Virus record (IMG/VR): IMGVR_UViG_3300035670_000079
Location: 64,001-101,068 of that record
DNA length: 37,068 bases
Origin: a virus
Strand: one strand, 5' to 3'
Shown piece by piece: positions 11,446-37,068 of the stretch (positions within the stretch are counted from its first letter, which is position 1; each line of letters opens with the position of its first letter). The notes below the pieces were generated by a model. The model was not told where the DNA came from, made no database searches, and was given only the letters and a program-made list of their open reading frames with translations. A program made the position numbers and the translations under genes.

Positions 11446-12873
11446 ATGAAACCTGAGATTGAATTTGATGCTACTGAAGTCTTCTCGCACATCTTCGTTA
11501 GTACCACATGGTCAACTAGCTTAGGGCATGGGAAGGCTACGGTTAACTTTACAAACTCCGGCACCGTTACAATTAGCGGTGAGGAGTTTACTTATGATTT
11601 CGTACATCAACCTACGCCGGCTATTCTCATACATAAGGGAGAGACTCTTATGTTTAAGTTTGAGTGGTTCGATGATGTTAAGTATTTCAAATCCAAGAGT
11701 CCGTACAATGCTGGATTTGAGTTACTCAAGCCTATGTCAAATATGCTTGAATGGAATAAGTTGTGTGATTCACGCACACTGAAGCGGAAAGAGCGGTTGG
11801 CTAGGGCTACGGCTGCCAAGAAGGGTATAGTCAAGCGGCAAACTACGGATACCCGTGGTTACTTTATCCCTGATTATATGATACTCAAGGAGTTTCCGGA
11901 CCATAAGACTAAGCATAAGCTGGCAATAGGGTTAATTGCTGCCGACCGCCCGCATTATTTTAAGAGAGTTTTTCCCGCTATTGTGCAATCTGTTGCACTA
12001 GCTGAGATTGAAGTTGATTGGTACCTGTTTGTCGATAGAGTTAAGCCGGATGCGCGGGATGAGCTTGCGCAGATTGAATTATTTAACAATATGGTAAAGG
12101 GTGGTACAGTTATTCGCCGTGACGTTAATTTTGGCTGTGGTGGGAATATCATAAATGCTAGGGCTATCCTGCTGGATCAGTTAGATTATGAAGCTGCTTA
12201 TATTTTTGAAGATGATATGGTTCCGCATCCATCCTATGTTAGTGTTTGTGAAAGCTTGGCTAAATACGCGGAGCGTGTGTCTACGCCTGAAATTAACTAC
12301 GGAATAGTACAAGGGTGGAATTGGTTTACACTTAGTAGCGGTGCGGCTCAGAGGTATGCATCCTACGTTACACCTACATGTAGTAATTTGTGGGGATATA
12401 GGATTACTCGTAAATGTTGGTCAGATATTTCTGAGTTTATGTATTTCTACTTGAATACTTTTCTGAAAAATTGTAGATACGCTGATAGGGACCATCGCTC
12501 GATAGCTACATGGTTGCGTAATCAGACTAGGAATTATGTTGTTCCCGATCTTCCGGTATTCGGTAATAAGTGTCCGGCATTTTCTGAAAAGATTGTAAGA
12601 TACTTAGCTGGTCCACCTACGGGTCAGGATGCCGCTACTGTAGTAGCCTGTTTGTTGGCTAATCAGTATAGACTTGCTCCTGTGGTTGCTAGAGGTGACT
12701 ACATAGGAAAGATGGGGATACACATGAATCCTCGTCAATGGGCAGCAGACGGTTATGATGCTCTTAAGTCTGTGGATATCGGTTATGATCATGATCAGTG
12801 GGATGAACTTGTTGGTCATGTCACTGATGACTTCAAACAAGTAAACTCTGTGGAAGGGCTGGTGTCAGCGTAA
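11446..12873 (+). CDS. GT-A glycosyltransferase with beta-rich N-terminal domain
   Basis: 475 aa. Residues 1-100 are beta-rich and contain a small Ig/CBM-like pattern (KATVNFTNSGTVTISGEEFTYDF). Residues of about 155-300 carry the glycosyltransferase domain: KLAIGLIAADRPHYFKRVFPAIVQS opens it, FVDRVKPDARDE gives a second strand, and YIFEDDMVPHPSY at 253-264 holds the E-D-D (DxD-type, 255-257) metal and nucleotide-sugar site. The pattern is close to that of GNT-I-like enzymes. The rest includes NLWGYRITRKCW, typical of acceptor-side segments. It lies between a hub-like tail gene and the Acb2-like gene. A transferase fused to a virion-like domain is unusual, and it may modify or ride on the tail. 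Confidence 0.7.
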   Translation: MKPEIEFDATEVFSHIFVSTTWSTSLGHGKATVNFTNSGTVTISGEEFTYDFVHQPTPAILIHKGETLMFKFEWFDDVKYFKSKSPYNAGFELLKPMSNMLEWNKLCDSRTLKRKERLARATAAKKGIVKRQTTDTRGYFIPDYMILKEFPDHKTKHKLAIGLIAADRPHYFKRVFPAIVQSVALAEIEVDWYLFVDRVKPDARDELAQIELFNNMVKGGTVIRRDVNFGCGGNIINARAILLDQLDYEAAYIFEDDMVPHPSYVSVCESLAKYAERVSTPEINYGIVQGWNWFTLSSGAAQRYASYVTPTCSNLWGYRITRKCWSDISEFMYFYLNTFLKNCRYADRDHRSIATWLRNQTRNYVVPDLPVFGNKCPAFSEKIVRYLAGPPTGQDAATVVACLLANQYRLAPVVARGDYIGKMGIHMNPRQWAADGYDALKSVDIGYDHDQWDELVGHVTDDFKQVNSVEGLVSA

Positions 12874-13067
12874 TGAATACAGATACGCCTCAAATTTTTC
12901 GTTATTTCTCAAGTGCTCACTTACCTGAGAAATTGGCAGCTACTTCTAGGAAATTTGAAGAGGTGGCCCAATGGTTAATACAAAATGTTCCCGATAGTGC
13001 GGAGCGTCAAGTTGCATTAAGGAAACTTTTAGAAGGTAAAGATGCGGCAGTGAGGGCTATGCTCTAG
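12873..13067 (+). CDS. Acb2/Tad1-hairpin-like protein, probable cyclic-nucleotide sponge (anti-CBASS/anti-Thoeris)
   Basis: 64 aa, with its ATG overlapping the previous stop by one base (TAATG). It begins MNTDTPQIFRYFSSAHLPEKL and continues with a helical hairpin and a terminal VALRKLLEGKDAAVRAML. The HLPE start and the R-x-VALRKLLE-x-KDAAVRA end are, as I recall, the signature of the Acb2/Tad1 hairpin family. Members of the family form oligomers that bind cyclic di- and trinucleotides, or related signalling molecules, so that CBASS or Thoeris effectors are not activated. It has no signal peptide and no other domain. It is the last gene before a strong terminator, at the end of the tail operon. 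Ligand specificity cannot be read from sequence. Confidence 0.75.
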   Translation: MNTDTPQIFRYFSSAHLPEKLAATSRKFEEVAQWLIQNVPDSAERQVALRKLLEGKDAAVRAML

Positions 13068-13078
13068 GCTTGACAGGT

Positions 13079-13111
13079 AAACCCCGCCAATTTCGGCGGG
13101 GTTTATTTTTT
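13079..13111 (+). terminator. Rho-independent terminator after the tail/Acb2-like block
   Basis: Perfect 10-bp stem AAACCCCGCC (13079-13088) and GGCGGGGTTT (13095-13104), with loop AATTTC, followed by a run of six T. It lies 12 bp past the stop of the Acb2-like gene. A run of 13 A follows at 13113-13125. Confidence 0.93.
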
Positions 13112-13184
13112 CAAAAAAAAAAAAACGCGGTAATTCAAAAAATTCAAACAGCGCAAAAACTCCAACATGCGGAAAAAACAGGAA

Positions 13185-13213
13185 TTGACACCAAAACAGA
13201 AATGTGATATAAT
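13185..13213 (+). promoter_or_regulatory. Consensus sigma-70 promoter of the early region
   Basis: TTGACA (13185-13190), a 17-bp spacer and TATAAT (13208-13213): a perfect match to both consensus boxes at optimal spacing. The expected start is near 13220. It follows a terminator and an A-rich stretch (13113-13180) and faces the early and replication genes, so it probably drives them using host RNA polymerase. Confidence 0.92.
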
Positions 13214-13300
13214 ACCGACGTATTACGGCGGGCAGCGACCAGAGGGAGCTGAGCCAGCCGTCAGTTACGCGAGTGCAGCGAGCGTAACTGTAATTCTGCG

Positions 13301-13360
13301 AGCGAACGCGAGCAGTCAAGCCTGCGAACGCAGTGAGCAGTCCGCGAACGTAGTGAGCCG
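13301..13360 (+). repeat. Iteron-like imperfect direct repeats
   Basis: Three imperfect copies of a 15-18 bp unit: AGCGAACGCGAGCAG (13301-13315), TGCGAACGCAGTGAGCAG (13323-13340) and CGCGAACGTAGTGAGCCG (13343-13360). A related GCGAGTGCAGCGAGCG precedes them (13269-13284). Regularly spaced repeats next to an A-rich stretch recall iterons or an RNA or protein docking array. Confidence 0.6.
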
Positions 13361-13392
13361 TTTGCCGCGTTAGCGGCAAACTCTGTGAGCAT

Positions 13393-13407
13393 TTGCAAGA
13401 CTTGCAA
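13393..13407. repeat. Interspersed palindrome, site 7 (leader)
   Basis: TTGCAAG-A-CTTGCAA, perfect. It lies in the early leader, 12 bp after the last hairpin and 21 bp before the first early ATG. Confidence 0.9.
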
Positions 13408-13428
13408 TCAATTTGTTCGGAGACGGGC

Positions 13429-13599
13429 ATGTTATGTAATGGGAAGTATTACGTCGCCTGTACCCCTAATTTGCAAATACAGGTAAGCGAAGCTGAGCAT
13501 GAACGTATTCGCAGCTTACGCGGCGAGCCGTTAGTTGAAATCCCTGTTGAAGACGGTAATTACTTGCGGTGGATTTGGGTAGATGACCCGACGGTGTAG
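13429..13599 (+). CDS. Small early protein of unknown function
   Basis: 56 aa from the ATG at 13429, which has a CGGAG ribosome site 6 nt upstream. An in-frame TTG at 13393 would start inside the palindrome and is unlikely. The product MLCNGKYYVACTPNLQIQV... is mostly beta with an acidic end (VEDGNYLRWIWVDDPTV). No family is recognised. It is the first gene behind the strong promoter at 13185, a place where phages often put host-takeover or anti-defence genes; that role is only suggested by position. Confidence 0.65.
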   Translation: MLCNGKYYVACTPNLQIQVSEAEHERIRSLRGEPLVEIPVEDGNYLRWIWVDDPTV

Positions 13600-13606
13600 T
13601 AGTGGC

Positions 13607-13622
13607 TTGCAAGGGCTTGCAA
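13607..13622. repeat. Interspersed palindrome, site 8 (intergenic)
   Basis: TTGCAAG-GG-CTTGCAA, perfect arms. It lies between two tiny early genes and ends 6 bp before the GGAGG of the next one. Confidence 0.9.
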
Positions 13623-15973: not shown

Positions 15974-15974
15974 T

Positions 15975-16178
15975 GTGATTCTTTGCAAGACTTGCAACAA
16001 CATGAATCAGGTCAATGACCCTTATTGTAGGTTTTGTGGTAAGTATATGCTCCCTGTTATTGATTATAGTAATTCTACTGCTGTTGTGTCACCGGCTCGC
16101 GCCGGGGTTGTAGTCACAGACGCCATTGCTAAGCGTATGGAAGAATTGAGAAAAGAGATTCACATTCTGAACTGGTGA
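15975..16178 (+). CDS. Small zinc-ribbon protein
   Basis: 67 aa with a GTG start one base after the upstream stop; GGGAGGT lies about 6 nt before it. The N-terminus is a classic two-knuckle zinc ribbon: CKTC, 11 residues, CRFC. A linker and a helical end (AIAKRMEELRKEIHILNW) follow. It could bind nucleic acid or a host protein. No more precise family is visible. The palindrome at 15983 lies within the first codons. Confidence 0.7.
   Translation: MILCKTCNNMNQVNDPYCRFCGKYMLPVIDYSNSTAVVSPARAGVVVTDAIAKRMEELRKEIHILNW
15983..15997. repeat. Interspersed palindrome, site 9
   Basis: TTGCAAG-A-CTTGCAA, perfect, starting at the third codon of the zinc-ribbon gene and forming its first knuckle (Leu-Cys-Lys-Thr-Cys-Asn). 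Confidence 0.9.
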
Positions 16179-16194
16179 AAAGTTAGGGAAACCT

Positions 16195-16335
16195 ATGAGC
16201 AAGAAAAAGATTTTGATTGTCGGCGGTGGCACCCTCTTAGATGAAAAGACAGGAGGTTATGTATCACTGGAAGATAGGTTAAAGGTTACATCAGTAGTAG
16301 ATGATGCTGGTAAACTTTTGAAAGGGGTCCGCTAA
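16195..16335 (+). CDS. Very small early protein of unknown function
   Basis: 46 aa, filling the gap between two genes exactly, with AGGGA just upstream of the ATG. It reads MSKKKILIVGGGTLLDEKTGG and ends KLLKGVR. The N-terminal KILIVGGGT looks like a nucleotide-binding strand-loop, but the protein is too short for a full Rossmann fold, so this may be coincidence or a remnant. It ends one base before the next GTG start. Function unknown. Confidence 0.6.
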   Translation: MSKKKILIVGGGTLLDEKTGGYVSLEDRLKVTSVVDDAGKLLKGVR

Positions 16336-16336
16336 G

Positions 16337-23976: not shown

Positions 23977-25878
23977 ATGACTGAGATCGAGGAAAAGCAG
24001 TTAGAGGCGATTCATCCTGAATATGCCGAATTTATCCATAAGGTTATCTCACGTGGGTTTTTCTCATTCGACATTGAACATGATCCTAGTCTATCTCCGG
24101 ATAAGGTGGGCTTTAAATTACATGGCGTATCTTTGAGTTGCATAGATGCGACCTACTACGTGCAAGATCAGCCAACGGCTACTTTGCTGCTGAGCATATT
24201 GTTTAAGTTGAAGAATGTTTATGCGATTGCTCACAACTGCAAATACGATTGCAAGTGCTTGCATGCTGCGAAGTGGGTAGAGGGTTACCCGGTTAAACTT
24301 TGTGATACCATGATCGCAGCTAACTTGGTGGATGATAATTTGCAGCCGCGTGAACTTGGCCTTAAGCCATTAGTTAGGGAAATATTCAATCATAATATGA
24401 TGGAGTTTGAGGCAGCGTACCAGTCAGGTGGCTTAGACTCACCGACATTCATACAATACGCTAAGGATGACGCTTATTGGGAAGCTAGGTTGTGGGTACA
24501 CTTAGCGCAGAGAATGCAGCAACTTGGTGTATTTGAGTACTTTCTATCTGTTCCGACTAATGAGATATTCTGCGATATGGAAGAGTGGGGTTTTCCAGTA
24601 GATGTGAATAAGCTGTGGTCATTGACATTGAGCATGGCTAAGATACGTGATAGTGCGGAGTCTAAAGTATTTGAGTCTATAGGCTATCTTAATTTGAACT
24701 CACCGGCACAGTTGTCTAAGAGATTATTTGAGGATTTGGGTTACTCTACTGTCGGCATCTCTAAGACACCTTCCGGAAAGTCTTGGGCTACGGATGAAGC
24801 CGCCATAGAGGTGCTGGCAGAGAAGTATCCTGCATGTGCCTTGATACGCGATTTTCGTACTGCCGATAAGCTATTGTCTACATTTATAACTCCGATGGCT
24901 CAGTATGCTCTTAAAGACCCACATAGCGTTGTCAGGGGACATTACTGGCTATTTTCTAAGACTGGCCGGACTAGATGCTCTGATTTTAATTTGCAGAATA
25001 TTCCGGTTAGGCTGCCCGATGCGTTTAAAGGTCTAAATATTAAAGAGGCTTTTGTACCGTTCCCTGATCATGATCTGATAGTGGCAGACTTGAGTAATCT
25101 TGAGTTGCGTATGGTTGCACATATTACCGGTGATCGTGAGATGACATCTGCCTTCCTAACTTGGAAGTGTAATGAGTGTGGCGATTCGGGGCAATCTCAG
25201 AGTATTTTGCATAATTGCCCGACATGTGGTGCTGAGGAAAATGAGGCTGTAGGTAAAGAGATAGCAGGGGCACCGGGATTTTATCATGGTATTGATCTCC
25301 ATACTCGAACTTCTAGAATACCTGCCGTAGGTGGTAATAGGGATAAAGCTAAAGCAGCTAACTTCGCACTGGTATATATGGCAACTGCATATAGGATGGC
25401 CGCAGAGTTCCCCGGAACTACTGTAGCAGAGTGGGAAGCTATCTCTGAACAGTATTTCCAGATGTACTCTGGTGTAGCCAAGTGGCATGATACGATTTGG
25501 AATAACATAAATGTAGGTAAGACATTCGTCGTTATCGAACCCTTCGGACGACGCCGTACTATTACATCTCAGATGATTCAGCACAGCAAAAAACACTGTG
25601 CTAACTTAGCAGCTAATTTTGGTCCGCAATCCGGTGGTTGTGGGTTGGCTCAGCGGGGTCTCAAGAAATTTAGAGACTCTGAGATAGCTTTTGGCCGGTA
25701 TGGTACATTGGTTAGACCGGTTAACTTTATTCATGACGAAATTGTTGTATCTGCTCATAAGTCGGTATCGCATAAAGTTGCAGCTAATTTACAGCATTGC
25801 TTAGAAACGGCGGTTAGGCTGCGGGTGCCTATGAGGAGTTCCTGCAATATCTGTGCGAATTGGTACGAAGGCAAATAG
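23977..25878 (+). CDS. Family A DNA polymerase with 3'-5' exonuclease and zinc-ribbon insert
   Basis: 633 aa from the ATG at 23977 (GGGGG upstream); a frame start at 23932 lies across the terminator and is rejected. The exonuclease has D32/E34 (FDIEHD), D91 (AHNCKYDCK) and YAKDD at 161-165. The polymerase has motif A with D371 (IVADLSNLELRMVAH), motif B RDKAKAANFALVYM (R455, K459, Y467) and motif C HDE at 586-588. Between motifs A and B, where family members usually go straight to DLH, an insert of about 40 residues carries C398, C401, C414 and C417 (CNEC, CPTC), a zinc ribbon. It is the phage replicase. The alternative of a repair polymerase is less likely given the full replisome. Confidence 0.93.
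   Translation: MTEIEEKQLEAIHPEYAEFIHKVISRGFFSFDIEHDPSLSPDKVGFKLHGVSLSCIDATYYVQDQPTATLLLSILFKLKNVYAIAHNCKYDCKCLHAAKWVEGYPVKLCDTMIAANLVDDNLQPRELGLKPLVREIFNHNMMEFEAAYQSGGLDSPTFIQYAKDDAYWEARLWVHLAQRMQQLGVFEYFLSVPTNEIFCDMEEWGFPVDVNKLWSLTLSMAKIRDSAESKVFESIGYLNLNSPAQLSKRLFEDLGYSTVGISKTPSGKSWATDEAAIEVLAEKYPACALIRDFRTADKLLSTFITPMAQYALKDPHSVVRGHYWLFSKTGRTRCSDFNLQNIPVRLPDAFKGLNIKEAFVPFPDHDLIVADLSNLELRMVAHITGDREMTSAFLTWKCNECGDSGQSQSILHNCPTCGAEENEAVGKEIAGAPGFYHGIDLHTRTSRIPAVGGNRDKAKAANFALVYMATAYRMAAEFPGTTVAEWEAISEQYFQMYSGVAKWHDTIWNNINVGKTFVVIEPFGRRRTITSQMIQHSKKHCANLAANFGPQSGGCGLAQRGLKKFRDSEIAFGRYGTLVRPVNFIHDEIVVSAHKSVSHKVAANLQHCLETAVRLRVPMRSSCNICANWYEGK
24249..24264. repeat. Interspersed palindrome, site 15 (one mismatch)
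   Basis: TTGCAAG-TG-CTTGCAT: the last base is T rather than A. It lies inside the polymerase exonuclease domain, read as Cys-Lys-Cys-Leu-His, directly after catalytic D91. Confidence 0.8.
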
Positions 25879-25891
25879 CTTAAAATGAAAG

Positions 25892-27253
25892 ATGAAAATG
25901 GGACAATCTCAAAAACCTGATGTAATTCTTAGCAATATGCTATGGCTAAGGAAAACTTTGCTAACAGGCTCAACTTGCGATGTGTTGAAACGTAACAATA
26001 CTTTCGTAGGTCGGGCTACTGGACCGGATTTGACTCCTCCTATAGTACATGCTTATGTGGATCAGGGTGAGTACCTAGGTTTACCTCGTGAGCGTAGAAC
26101 TCAAGTAAACTGGCCTATTACCGATAAGACGGTGTTTAAGGGCGTAGTTTGGCCAAAGTTTTCTGGTACGTTTAGAACTGGTCAAGATGATTCAGTTAAC
26201 GACATTGTAAGTTATCTAACGTCAGGTAATTATGGTGTTAGGCTTAGCGCGCCTACCGGCAGTGGTAAAACTGTGATGGGTGTTTCGGTGGCTGCTGCCC
26301 TAGGTGCGCGGACTTTGGTGCTGTGCCATAAAGAGGATCTTTGTGGTCAGTGGCATAATACTGTCAACACCTTCTACAGCGGAGCTAGGCTTGGGCATGT
26401 TCAGGGTAACGATTGGTTGTACGCTAATACCCACTTAACTACGGCGATGGTGCAAACACTGTATAGTCGCCGTAATAGTATACCTCCAGAGTTCTTTAAA
26501 TCCTTTGATTTAGTGTTAGTGGATGAGGGTCATAGAATGGCCGCAGATACTTTCGAGTATGTAATTAAGTGCATGCCTGCTAAATATAGGTTGGCAGTAT
26601 CTGCAACTTGGCGACGTGCAGATAATCTGAATATACTTTGGGATGTGCATGTCTCTCCACACGTTGTTGTTCATAACGTGGATCAATTATCTGGAAAATA
26701 TGCGATAGCTCATTTGCCTATACTCATCCCGTTATCCGCTAGGATGCCGTGGGCTAGGGCGCTTAACATGATAGCCAGTAATGATAACTACAACGAGTGG
26801 TTATCTGGCGAGATTTGTAAGGCTGCTAAAGCTAATAGGAAAGTTCTAGTATTGAGTGATAGAATTAAGCAATTGGAGACTCTTCGGGCTAAGGTTGACA
26901 TCAAGCTACGTTCCGAAGGTGTAACTAAGACTACGGCATACTACGTAGGCACATTAAATGGTAAGCCTATGACCTCATTTGAGAAGGCTTCCGCAAAAGC
27001 TGCTGATATAATTTTAGCAACCTACGGAGCTTGTTCAGAGGGTACAGATATCAAGGAATTAGATACACTATTTTTTGCATCTCCGCGAGGTGACATAGAG
27101 CAAGCGTTAGGAAGAATACGTAGAATAGCTGAAGGTAAGAAATCACTGTTAGTAGTGGACCCACATTTAGTTGGGCACCCGGTTTTGACTAGTACTGCTG
27201 CGAAGCGTATTCAAGCCTACTCCAGATTAGGATTCACTCCGCAACATGGTTGA
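25892..27253 (+). CDS. Superfamily 2 DNA/RNA helicase (DEAD/H type)
   Basis: 453 aa. The start could be the ATG at 25892 or 25898. Motif I is APTGSGKT at 120-127 and motif II DEGH at 211-214. Motif III SAT is at 237-239, and motif VI is the QALGRIRR segment near 405-412. Near 385-400 is ILATYGACSEGTDIKELDTLFFASP, the motif V region. This is the organisation of UvsW/Hef-like or ComFA-like restart helicases common in phages, which remodel stalled or recombining forks. It overlaps the ligase gene by 8 nt and belongs to the recombination cluster. Confidence 0.88.
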   Translation: MKMGQSQKPDVILSNMLWLRKTLLTGSTCDVLKRNNTFVGRATGPDLTPPIVHAYVDQGEYLGLPRERRTQVNWPITDKTVFKGVVWPKFSGTFRTGQDDSVNDIVSYLTSGNYGVRLSAPTGSGKTVMGVSVAAALGARTLVLCHKEDLCGQWHNTVNTFYSGARLGHVQGNDWLYANTHLTTAMVQTLYSRRNSIPPEFFKSFDLVLVDEGHRMAADTFEYVIKCMPAKYRLAVSATWRRADNLNILWDVHVSPHVVVHNVDQLSGKYAIAHLPILIPLSARMPWARALNMIASNDNYNEWLSGEICKAAKANRKVLVLSDRIKQLETLRAKVDIKLRSEGVTKTTAYYVGTLNGKPMTSFEKASAKAADIILATYGACSEGTDIKELDTLFFASPRGDIEQALGRIRRIAEGKKSLLVVDPHLVGHPVLTSTAAKRIQAYSRLGFTPQHG

Positions 27254-28553
27254 TTCAGAGATTTGCAAGTTCTTTCATGCTCTGTCTACTACACCGTCTA
27301 GGTTAGATAAGCTGAGGTTACTTAATTCCGTTAAAGATGATCATGTTATTGCAGAATTATTCAGGTTAGCCTACGATCCGACTATACTGTTCTATATGAC
27401 GAAGGTTCCAGAGTATCGGAGTTTGGTTACGCCGCAAGAAACTTTAACATCCTTTGTTACATATTCTCGGCTGGATGTGCTAAGTTCTAGGAAAATTACT
27501 GGGAATCTTGCTAAAACTTATGTTGCGTCTGTGCTCAGTGCTATGGAGCCGGCTGCTGCACAGATAGTAGTCAGAGTGTTGAAGAAAGACTTGCAGTGCG
27601 GTGTTGCAGCTAAGACCGTATTGCAAGTTTGGCCTACGTTGTTTAAGCTATTTGAGGATATGTCGTGTGTAGATAACTTGGCTGCAATCAGCTTCCCCTG
27701 TTATGCGCAGACCAAGCTGGACGGTGGTAAGTGTGTAATGATTAATAGAGGTGGTAATATCATCTGTTTGTCACGTGAGGGCAAGCCTATTGAAGTTCAC
27801 GGTAGATTTGATCCTCTTATTGAGAATATTCCGGACGGTGTTCAAGTAGAGGGTGAGTTAGTAGGTATTGGGCATGATCTTAAAATCTTGCCTAGAACCG
27901 TTGGGAACGGTATTATAAATAAGGCAATACGTGGCACTATTACCGAAGGTGAGGCAGAGCTACTTGCACTGATAGCATATGACATACGAAGTAGTACTAA
28001 GCCCTATAAGGGGAGGTTGCAAGACCTTGCAAGCTATGTGAAGGCTGAGCCATATTCATTCTTTAGGCTAGTTGATACGGAGATCATGCCGAATAAAGAG
28101 GAACTATTTAAGTTTTTTGATTTTAAGGTTTCTCAGGGTGAAGAGGGCGTGGTAGTTAAGAATCTGTATTTTAGATGGCATCCCGGACCTAATAAAAGTT
28201 GCGTTAAGCTGAAGGCTGAGTATGAGGGCGACTTTCAGGTAATAGGTATTAAAGAGGGCGCAGCTGGAAAAGCTGTCGGTAAAATAGGCTCACTTAAGAT
28301 TGCTACGGCAGATGGTGAGCTTGAGTGTTATGTCGGGTCGGGCTTGACAGATGATGATAGGGCGGTATTGACAGAATCGGATATAGTTGGTAAAATAGTC
28401 AGAGTAACCTACAATGATATTGTTATGAATAAGTCAGGTAAATCTAGGCATAGCCTATTTTTGCCTAGGCTGAAACCTAACTTTATACGAAGTGATAAGT
28501 CAGAAGCGGATACACTTAAAAAACTCATGGAGCAGTGCAAAAAATGTCGGTAG
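27246..28553 (+). CDS. ATP-dependent DNA ligase
   Basis: 435 aa. The nucleotidyltransferase motif I is QTKLDGGK with K157 as the lysine that would be adenylated (KLDG, 157-160). Further motifs follow the family order: GVQVEGELVG (motif III, near 196-205), EEGVVVKN near 297-304 (motif IV) and SCVKLKAEY (motif V). The first 150 residues form the helical DNA-binding domain and the end is the OB-fold. This resembles T4-type ligases and would seal nicks during phage replication. It overlaps the helicase gene upstream and the next gene downstream. Confidence 0.9.
   Translation: MVDSEICKFFHALSTTPSRLDKLRLLNSVKDDHVIAELFRLAYDPTILFYMTKVPEYRSLVTPQETLTSFVTYSRLDVLSSRKITGNLAKTYVASVLSAMEPAAAQIVVRVLKKDLQCGVAAKTVLQVWPTLFKLFEDMSCVDNLAAISFPCYAQTKLDGGKCVMINRGGNIICLSREGKPIEVHGRFDPLIENIPDGVQVEGELVGIGHDLKILPRTVGNGIINKAIRGTITEGEAELLALIAYDIRSSTKPYKGRLQDLASYVKAEPYSFFRLVDTEIMPNKEELFKFFDFKVSQGEEGVVVKNLYFRWHPGPNKSCVKLKAEYEGDFQVIGIKEGAAGKAVGKIGSLKIATADGELECYVGSGLTDDDRAVLTESDIVGKIVRVTYNDIVMNKSGKSRHSLFLPRLKPNFIRSDKSEADTLKKLMEQCKKCR
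28017..28032. repeat. Interspersed palindrome, site 16
   Basis: TTGCAAG-AC-CTTGCAA, perfect arms, inside the ligase gene, read as Leu-Gln-Asp-Leu-Ala-Ser. Confidence 0.9.
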
Positions 28554-28888
28554 AACTCAACGGAACCTCTGAAAATTTTGAAGCTTCTGTTACAATGTCT
28601 GCTAACGGTGTCGAGTTGCAAGCCTTGCAATTGCGACCGAAAATTTCAGTAGACGGCCCTACTGACGGCACCCTTGTACGCATGAGTGTGGGAGAGACTA
28701 TAAATTTGGGTAACTATCAATCTTTGCGGCTTGATGTTTCTGTGCAGCTACCTACGAATCTTGCCAGCCTCGATAGTACTGTTACGCAGTGCGCTGATTA
28801 TGTTGATATGATTTTGAAGGAGCGCAAGGATCAATTTGCGGAGAAGGCTAACGCCGTCAAAAGTGACCTCGACAAGGTGTTTGGTTAA
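28544..28888 (+). CDS. Small protein of unknown function between ligase and recombinase
   Basis: 114 aa from the ATG at 28544, inside the ligase end; a GTG at 28535 is a less likely start. The first 70 residues are beta-rich (VELNGTSENFEASVTMSANGVEL; LVRMSVGETINLGNYQSLRLDVSVQLPTNLASLDS), and the last 35 form a helix (DMILKERKDQFAEKANAVKSDLDKVFG). Small proteins with the NYQSLRLDVSVQLP-type strand occur near phage recombinases, but I know no function. It ends on the first base of the recombinase ATG. Confidence 0.6.
   Translation: MSVELNGTSENFEASVTMSANGVELQALQLRPKISVDGPTDGTLVRMSVGETINLGNYQSLRLDVSVQLPTNLASLDSTVTQCADYVDMILKERKDQFAEKANAVKSDLDKVFG
28616..28630. repeat. Interspersed palindrome, site 17
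   Basis: TTGCAAG-C-CTTGCAA, perfect, inside the small gene before the recombinase, read as Leu-Gln-Ala-Leu-Gln, the same peptide as at site 1. Confidence 0.9.
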
Positions 28889-33390: not shown

Positions 33391-33505
33391 TGGCAGGACG
33401 GGTTAGTGCCGGAGCGGGCTATTAGCCCACTACTGCTACCATAGTCAGCTAGGTAGTCGCATACGGTGGCAAGTTAGTTTACAGGATTCTCGATAATTCG
33501 CCAAG

Positions 33506-33536
33506 AACGGCCTGTTACTCTCTTGACAGGCCCGTT
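33506..33536. promoter_or_regulatory. Operator-like inverted repeat over the -35 box
   Basis: AACGGCCTGT (33506-33515) and ACAGGCCCGTT (33526-33536) form an inverted repeat with one extra C and a 10-nt centre. The right arm overlaps the -35 hexamer, so a bound dimer would block the promoter. It may bind a repressor, possibly the downstream gene product. A small hairpin GGGCT/AGCCC also occurs at 33416-33428. Confidence 0.55.
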
Positions 33537-33551
33537 AGTGTCTGGTACAAT
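33523..33551 (+). promoter_or_regulatory. Sigma-70 promoter for the 33642 gene
   Basis: TTGACA (33523-33528), a 17-bp spacer and TACAAT (33546-33551). This is the second near-consensus promoter in the window. The expected start is near 33558. A hairpin TCCGCC-TTGTC-GGCGGA (33551-33567) covers that start, and another (GCTGACCG/CGGTTAGC, 33578-33602) lies in the leader. Confidence 0.88.
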
Positions 33552-33641
33552 CCGCCTTGTCGGCGGAGTTTCGCCAAGCTGACCGGCAGGGTGTCGGTTA
33601 GCGGAGATTGAAAGTCAGTTTAGTTTTAGAGGAACGAGAAG

Positions 33642-36172: not shown

Positions 36173-37068
36173 GTGTTATTACGAGAGCGGCTCTTGGCGG
36201 AATCTAAAATAGTTAGGGATGATCCATCCTTGCATTTTAAGTTACCGGAGGTGCCTAAGGGCAGATTAGAGGGTGAAAACTTAGCTATTTATATGGCTAA
36301 TTGCGTAGCAGCCTCGAATTCAATTCTTCAGATACTTGCACCTGAGGATGTTAGGATTACGTGGAGCAGTAATGTAGGCTTAGCTGCGATGGGTGCCGCC
36401 GGTGCGTATGATGGTGAGGCCCACGAGGTTATTATCGACCTAGATGCTTTTAAGGATGTAAACAGGCATGACATGGTTAACACTATGATAGGTGTTGGCC
36501 TGCATGAGTTAGCTCATAGGTTGTACACTCCGCAAGTGCTGTTTGATGACTTGCAGAAAGTCAATAAGGTTGTATCGGCTATAATGCAGTTGCTGGAGGA
36601 TATTCGCATAGAGACCCGTATGGGTACTTCGCGAGAAGTTAATATCTTCGGATTCTACTTTAATATCTTGCATAATCAGTTCATAAGTATCGAGCATCCT
36701 AGTACTTGTGCGGGGAAACCCGCAATTGTGAAGATAAACTTGCTCATGGCTTACTTACGAAAGCCTGCAAGTCTTGCAATGTTCCGATCAAATGAGCATC
36801 TAGCAGATATAGCTACGTTGGATAAGATACTAGGTGACGGTGCTAAGATTTTGTCGGACGATGCTCGTATATCCGAAGTAGCTACTGAGATATACGAGGC
36901 ATTGTTTAAGGCTGGAGATGATGAGGAGTCAGATGAATCCGGCGAATCTAGTGAATCCGGCGAGTCTAGTGAATCCGGCGAGTCTAGTGAATCCGGCGAG
37001 TCTAGTGAATCCGGCGAGTCTAGTGAATCCGGCGAGTCTAGTGAATCCGGCGAGTCTAGTGAATCCGG
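36173..37068 (+). CDS. HExxH protein with acidic repeat, probable MoxR partner (3' partial)
   Basis: GTG start with GAGGT 7 nt upstream, 5 nt after the ATPase stop; the frame runs off the right edge. Residues 111-115 are HELAH, an HExxH zinc-metallopeptidase-like motif in GVGLHELAHRLYTP. LEDIRIE at 141-147 could supply the third metal ligand. This arrangement recalls the N-terminal part of CobT-like VWA proteins paired with MoxR ATPases, where an acidic linker connects to a VWA domain. Here the chain continues into repeated ESGESS (from about residue 255). A VWA domain, if present, is beyond the window. Confidence 0.6.
   Translation, partial: MLLRERLLAESKIVRDDPSLHFKLPEVPKGRLEGENLAIYMANCVAASNSILQILAPEDVRITWSSNVGLAAMGAAGAYDGEAHEVIIDLDAFKDVNRHDMVNTMIGVGLHELAHRLYTPQVLFDDLQKVNKVVSAIMQLLEDIRIETRMGTSREVNIFGFYFNILHNQFISIEHPSTCAGKPAIVKINLLMAYLRKPASLAMFRSNEHLADIATLDKILGDGAKILSDDARISEVATEIYEALFKAGDDEESDESGESSESGESSESGESSESGESSESGESSESGESSESGESSES
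36765..36779. repeat. Interspersed palindrome, site 21 (one mismatch)
   Basis: CTGCAAG-T-CTTGCAA: the outer left base is C. It lies inside the HExxH gene, read as Ala-Ser-Leu-Ala, again the same peptide as at sites 3, 5, 6 and 13. Confidence 0.85.
36935..37068 (+). repeat. 18-bp tandem repeat encoding ESGESS
   Basis: About 7.4 copies of GAATCCGGCGAGTCTAGT; the first copy has one base difference (GAA for GAG). It gives a Ser/Glu-rich acidic linker in the HExxH protein and continues past the window edge. Near-identity of copies suggests recent expansion or strong homogenisation. Confidence 0.95.

Follow-up and report, generated by a model that had tools for sequence, protein, structure and literature searches.

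The 361-bp gap at positions 13068-13428 is probably the boundary between the late and replication operons of a phage, made up of an intrinsic terminator, a strong sigma-70 promoter and a structured 5' leader. The window analysed is a stretch of 37,068 nucleotides and covers bases 64001-101068 of a virus record 101,068 bases long (IMGVR_UViG_3300035670_000079), which by gene content appears to derive from a tailed phage, judging from the tail-type and replication proteins encoded. The genes of the window are on the + strand; across the whole record, open reading frames (ORFs) of at least 120 aa number 111 on the + strand and 35 on the - strand, the latter being mostly shadows of + genes. The block upstream of the gap contains tail/structural and glycosyltransferase-like genes (read by eye) and ends with a 64-aa ORF on the + strand (12873-13067) that resembles phrog_1761, of unknown function. 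The downstream block opens with a 56-aa ORF (13429-13599, + strand) that has no significant family match and is preceded by a GGAG ribosome-binding site (13419-13422), and it includes genes for a DnaB-type helicase, a DNA polymerase, a UvsX-type recombinase and an ATP-dependent ligase. The first-pass annotation had offered two readings of the gap, an early-promoter leader RNA or a replication origin. The former fits the order of structural-block terminator, perfect promoter, structured stretch, GGAG-led ORF and replication genes; the latter is not supported by the evidence given below.

The 64-aa ORF matches the Acb2/Tad1 hairpin domain of Pfam under the cut-off (E 0.072), so an anti-CBASS-like role is no more than a lead. 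A 117-aa ORF between the ligase and UvsX-type recombinase genes (28535-28888) shows PCNA-type similarity, but very weakly (E 0.1). A circular or permuted record is probable, because both of its ends (36173-37066 of the window and the first 200 bases of the record) fall within the same 18-bp repeat, which codes for SGES and belongs to one gene, the neighbour of an AAA ATPase gene. The gap was described earlier as the only long one, which is not so: a noncoding region at record 25662-28786 measures 3,125 bp, and the record has other gaps of 250-363 bp. Among these 250-363-bp gaps, two lie within the window, at 15974-16336 (record 79974-80336), which contains a 67-aa ORF, and at 33391-33641 (record 97391-97641).

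The intrinsic terminator (13078-13111, + strand) has the expected GC-rich hairpin and T-run: a perfect 11-bp stem (13078-13088/13095-13105) closes a 6-nt loop and is followed by T6, with a folding energy of -23.0 kcal/mol. It had been recognized in the first pass, and is absent from the listing of the consensus scan. Transcription of the tail/structural genes would stop here. The A-rich stretch that follows on the same strand (13113-13178), also as claimed, consists of four A-tracts (A13 at 13113, A6 at 13137, A5 at 13155 and A6 at 13173) approximately 18-24 bp apart on the 5' side of the -35 box, and is possibly an UP or curved element. The predicted sigma-70 promoter (13185-13213, + strand) matches the consensus at 12 of 12 hexamer positions, with TTGACA at 13185-13190, TATAAT at 13208-13213, a spacer of 17 bp (within the usual 16-18 bp) and a TG preceding the -10 box that makes it an extended -10 promoter. 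Its claimed uniqueness extends to the entire 101-kb record, in which the next-best sites score 11/12. We infer use of this promoter: strong, of the host type and aided by phased A-tracts, it would start the replication block at approximately 13218-13220. The transcript would open with a structured leader of about 209 nt, mostly an array of tandem-G.A mini-hairpins, and would meet no evident terminator before reaching the 56-aa ORF and, after it, the replication genes.

The repeats of the gap, formerly termed iteron-like, are better read as hairpins on the + strand. Five units have one architecture, stem-GA-2bp-loop-2bp-GA-stem, with tandem G.A mismatches and loops that are mostly GNA (AGA, GCA, GAAC, GCA and GTA, in order). 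Hairpin 1 (13233-13251) is CAGC-GA-CC(AGA)GG-GA-GCTG; hairpin 2 (13262-13290) is CAGTTACGC-GA-GT(GCA)GC-GA-GCGTAACTG; hairpin 3 (13296-13315) is CTGC-GA-GC(GAAC)GC-GA-GCAG; hairpin 4 (13322-13340) is CTGC-GA-AC(GCA)GT-GA-GCAG; and hairpin 5 (13344-13358) is GC-GA-AC(GTA)GT-GA-GC. The stem sequences vary among the five, with pairing and GA steps retained. Hairpin 6 (13360-13381) comes next on the + strand, with a perfect 9-bp stem and a GTTA loop and without GA mismatches. The three GCGAACG repeats (13303, 13324 and 13344) and the perfect 9-bp stems (13262-13270/13282-13290 and 13360-13368/13373-13381) on which the earlier description was based are all present. The array is not random: the gap has five non-overlapping tandem-GA units, 20,000 dinucleotide shuffles gave two at most, and the opposite (-) strand has none. 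Folding also exceeds chance, with a z of -2.3 as RNA and -3.7 as DNA.

That the gap is a replication origin, with the A-rich stretch as unwinding element and the repeats as iterons, is very improbable. Such an origin would account for an A-rich stretch, repeats and a strong promoter at the border of the replication genes. However, GC skew is positive throughout the record, and its cumulative curve, proposed earlier as a check, has its minimum at base 1 and climbs from there to the end of the record; at the gap there is neither a minimum nor a change of sign. The repeats, being hairpin units, also lack the regular helical spacing of iterons, as they start at 13233, 13262, 13296, 13322 and 13344, with spacings of 29, 34, 26 and 22. 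A stronger candidate for the origin is the 3,125-bp noncoding region (record 25662-28786, outside the window), which contains 73-bp repeats carrying the TTGCAAG palindrome and many short repeats. Hairpins of the GCCGAGCGTAAGCGAGGT type, related in design to those of the gap, are found on both strands of this region, and at record 25810-25846 a terminator-like hairpin made of a CTTGCAAG-type palindrome is followed by T7.

The operon-boundary reading is favoured by the strand of the array: all five hairpins would appear in RNA made from the promoter, and the opposite strand has none. The structured stretch begins approximately 13 nt past the predicted start site. In the predicted global RNA fold, hairpins 1, 2, 3 and 6 are kept. 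Hairpins 4 and 5 are lost to long-range pairing, which replaces hairpin 4, and hairpin 5 alone is barely stable as RNA (-0.2 kcal/mol); their absence from this fold counts against the boundary reading. The region of the ribosome-binding site is mostly paired in the predicted RNA ensemble. Acting as RNA, the leader might protect the 5' end from decay and tune access to the GGAG site, a role to which we assign a little less than an even chance.

Alternatively, the array may work as single-stranded DNA: the + strand, exposed in a transcription bubble, an R-loop or the lagging strand, would fold into highly stable hairpins of the GNA/tandem-G.A kind and be recognized by a replication or recombination protein, much like single-strand initiation sites. 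According to PMC6479982, citing Yoshizawa 1997 and Hirao, DNA mini-hairpins with GNA loops, in which a sheared G.A pair forms, are extraordinarily stable, and most loops of the array are of this kind. The confinement of the tandem-GA design to one strand of the gap, a fold z of -3.7 as DNA, and the related hairpins that the 3.1-kb noncoding region carries on either strand point in the same direction. Nevertheless, action as single-stranded DNA is unlikely, as the array is directly 3' of the perfect promoter and in line with it, there is no skew change at the gap, and the record has no Y1 (HUH) transposase domain. Hairpins 4 and 5 fold weakly or not at all in the DNA energy model, which gives similar energies for both strands but may fail to account for GNA loops and for sheared pairing of G with A.

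The palindrome TTGCAAGACTTGCAA (13393-13407), which had been pointed out as a site following the hairpins, is indeed there, but it is not specific to the gap. TTGCAAG-N(1-2)-CTTGCAA occurs in 41 perfect copies in the 101-kb record, compared to 0.0008 expected with independent bases; the spacer is always 1 or 2 among the spacers of 0-3 examined. A second copy, TTGCAAGGGCTTGCAA (13607-13622), is located past the 56-aa ORF, and the palindrome flanks this ORF yet is a genome-wide feature, present in both coding and noncoding DNA (examples in the window are at 1332, 4403, 7104, 13393, 15983, 21045, 30690 and 34675). When 398 genomes from a single phylum were searched for this palindrome as a lead to the host, 17 had one or two copies and none had many. 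The viral stretches examined contain one or two copies at most.

No usable orthologous region was found by megablast against phages, or with the downstream ORF, with DnaB in viral contigs or with the DNA polymerase in genome contigs; phage DNA polymerases match that of this phage at only about 25% identity. The glycosyltransferase-like gene has three matching loci (37% identity), at which the scan reported no GA-hairpin clusters. The gap contains no tRNA and no match to Rfam at the gathering cut-off, the sub-threshold matches falling on the terminator and the A-rich part, and searching papers for the exact 15-mers gave no match. The lack of an orthologous region and of an Rfam family weighs against the boundary reading.

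The hairpin design itself is found in other genomes. Searching with a DNA pattern of two units side by side gave matches in 22 genome-contig stretches (from Bacteroidota, Clostridia, Actinobacteria, an archaeon, a planctomycete and other sources) and in three viral contigs, and a variant richer in G+C matched 31 viral contigs; the loop make-up of the matched arrays is not independent evidence, because the search pattern fixes the loop. Several of the matched genomes carry additional scattered copies. Among randomly sampled Bacteroidota, the single hairpin core shows no clear enrichment: it is present in 7 of 148 genomes, against 2 of 148 with a broken-stem control, but a reversed control gives a similar number. 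Several viral contigs (L165 at 1160-1200, L162, L168, L169, L171-L174, L176, L177, L182, L184 and L190) carry a unit of two hairpins of this design, approximately 160-200 bp away from an adjacent gene and on the strand opposite to it; in L165, this gene looks like that of a terminase large subunit. In another viral contig, L160, a 10/12 promoter stands immediately 5' of two copies of the same hairpin, which is a point for the boundary reading. There is no general link of hairpin arrays to promoters, the mean best score being 7.4 upstream of arrays versus 7.0 and 7.1 in controls, and the orientation of arrays with respect to neighbouring genes is mixed in phages and bacteria alike. Both results would be unexpected if the role of the array were purely at the RNA level, and count against the boundary reading; the mixed orientation keeps a DNA-level or passenger reading open, and is a further point for action as single-stranded DNA.

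As a passenger, the array would be a REP-like dispersed repeat derived from a host and carried in the leader without a phage function. Such arrays are multi-copy, scattered and often intergenic in some bacterial and archaeal genomes, as a repeat of this kind would be. An origin of this sort is rather improbable, as the units of the gap preserve their design and yet vary in stem sequence, which fresh copies of a single element would not do, and the Y1 transposase domain looked for as the mark of REP/RAYT systems (PF01797) has no match in the phage record and is missing from two of eight cellular genomes that bear arrays. With considerable reserve, we suggest that tandem stem-GA-2bp-GNA-2bp-GA-stem arrays could be a recurring element of phages, bacteria and archaea, read as folded single strands by some factor, which in this phage heads the replication transcript.

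Should the hairpin design prove functional, unrelated genomes would share a structural signal that matched no Rfam family here, and this phage, with one promoter, one array and one downstream ORF, would offer a compact case for telling an RNA role from a DNA role. Otherwise, the gap would be an ordinary operon boundary carrying a decorative repeat. Control regions of early and middle phage operons have host sigma-70 promoters and combine the terminator of one block with a leader followed by replication genes. The gap resembles them in its block terminator, consensus promoter, leader and replication genes, and differs in having as its leader a row of tandem-G.A mini-hairpins that share a single design. 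With REP/REPIN elements (PMC3116915), the array shares short, dispersed intergenic hairpins of bacteria; the lack of a Y1 transposase in this phage and the tandem G.A of its unit design set it apart, and membership is not supported. With the GNA-loop DNA mini-hairpins of the d(GCGAAGC) type (PMC6479982), it shares a short stem, a GNA loop and an expected sheared G.A pairing, whereas the units described here, known from sequence, form natural tandem arrays and have an extra tandem G.A step in each stem.
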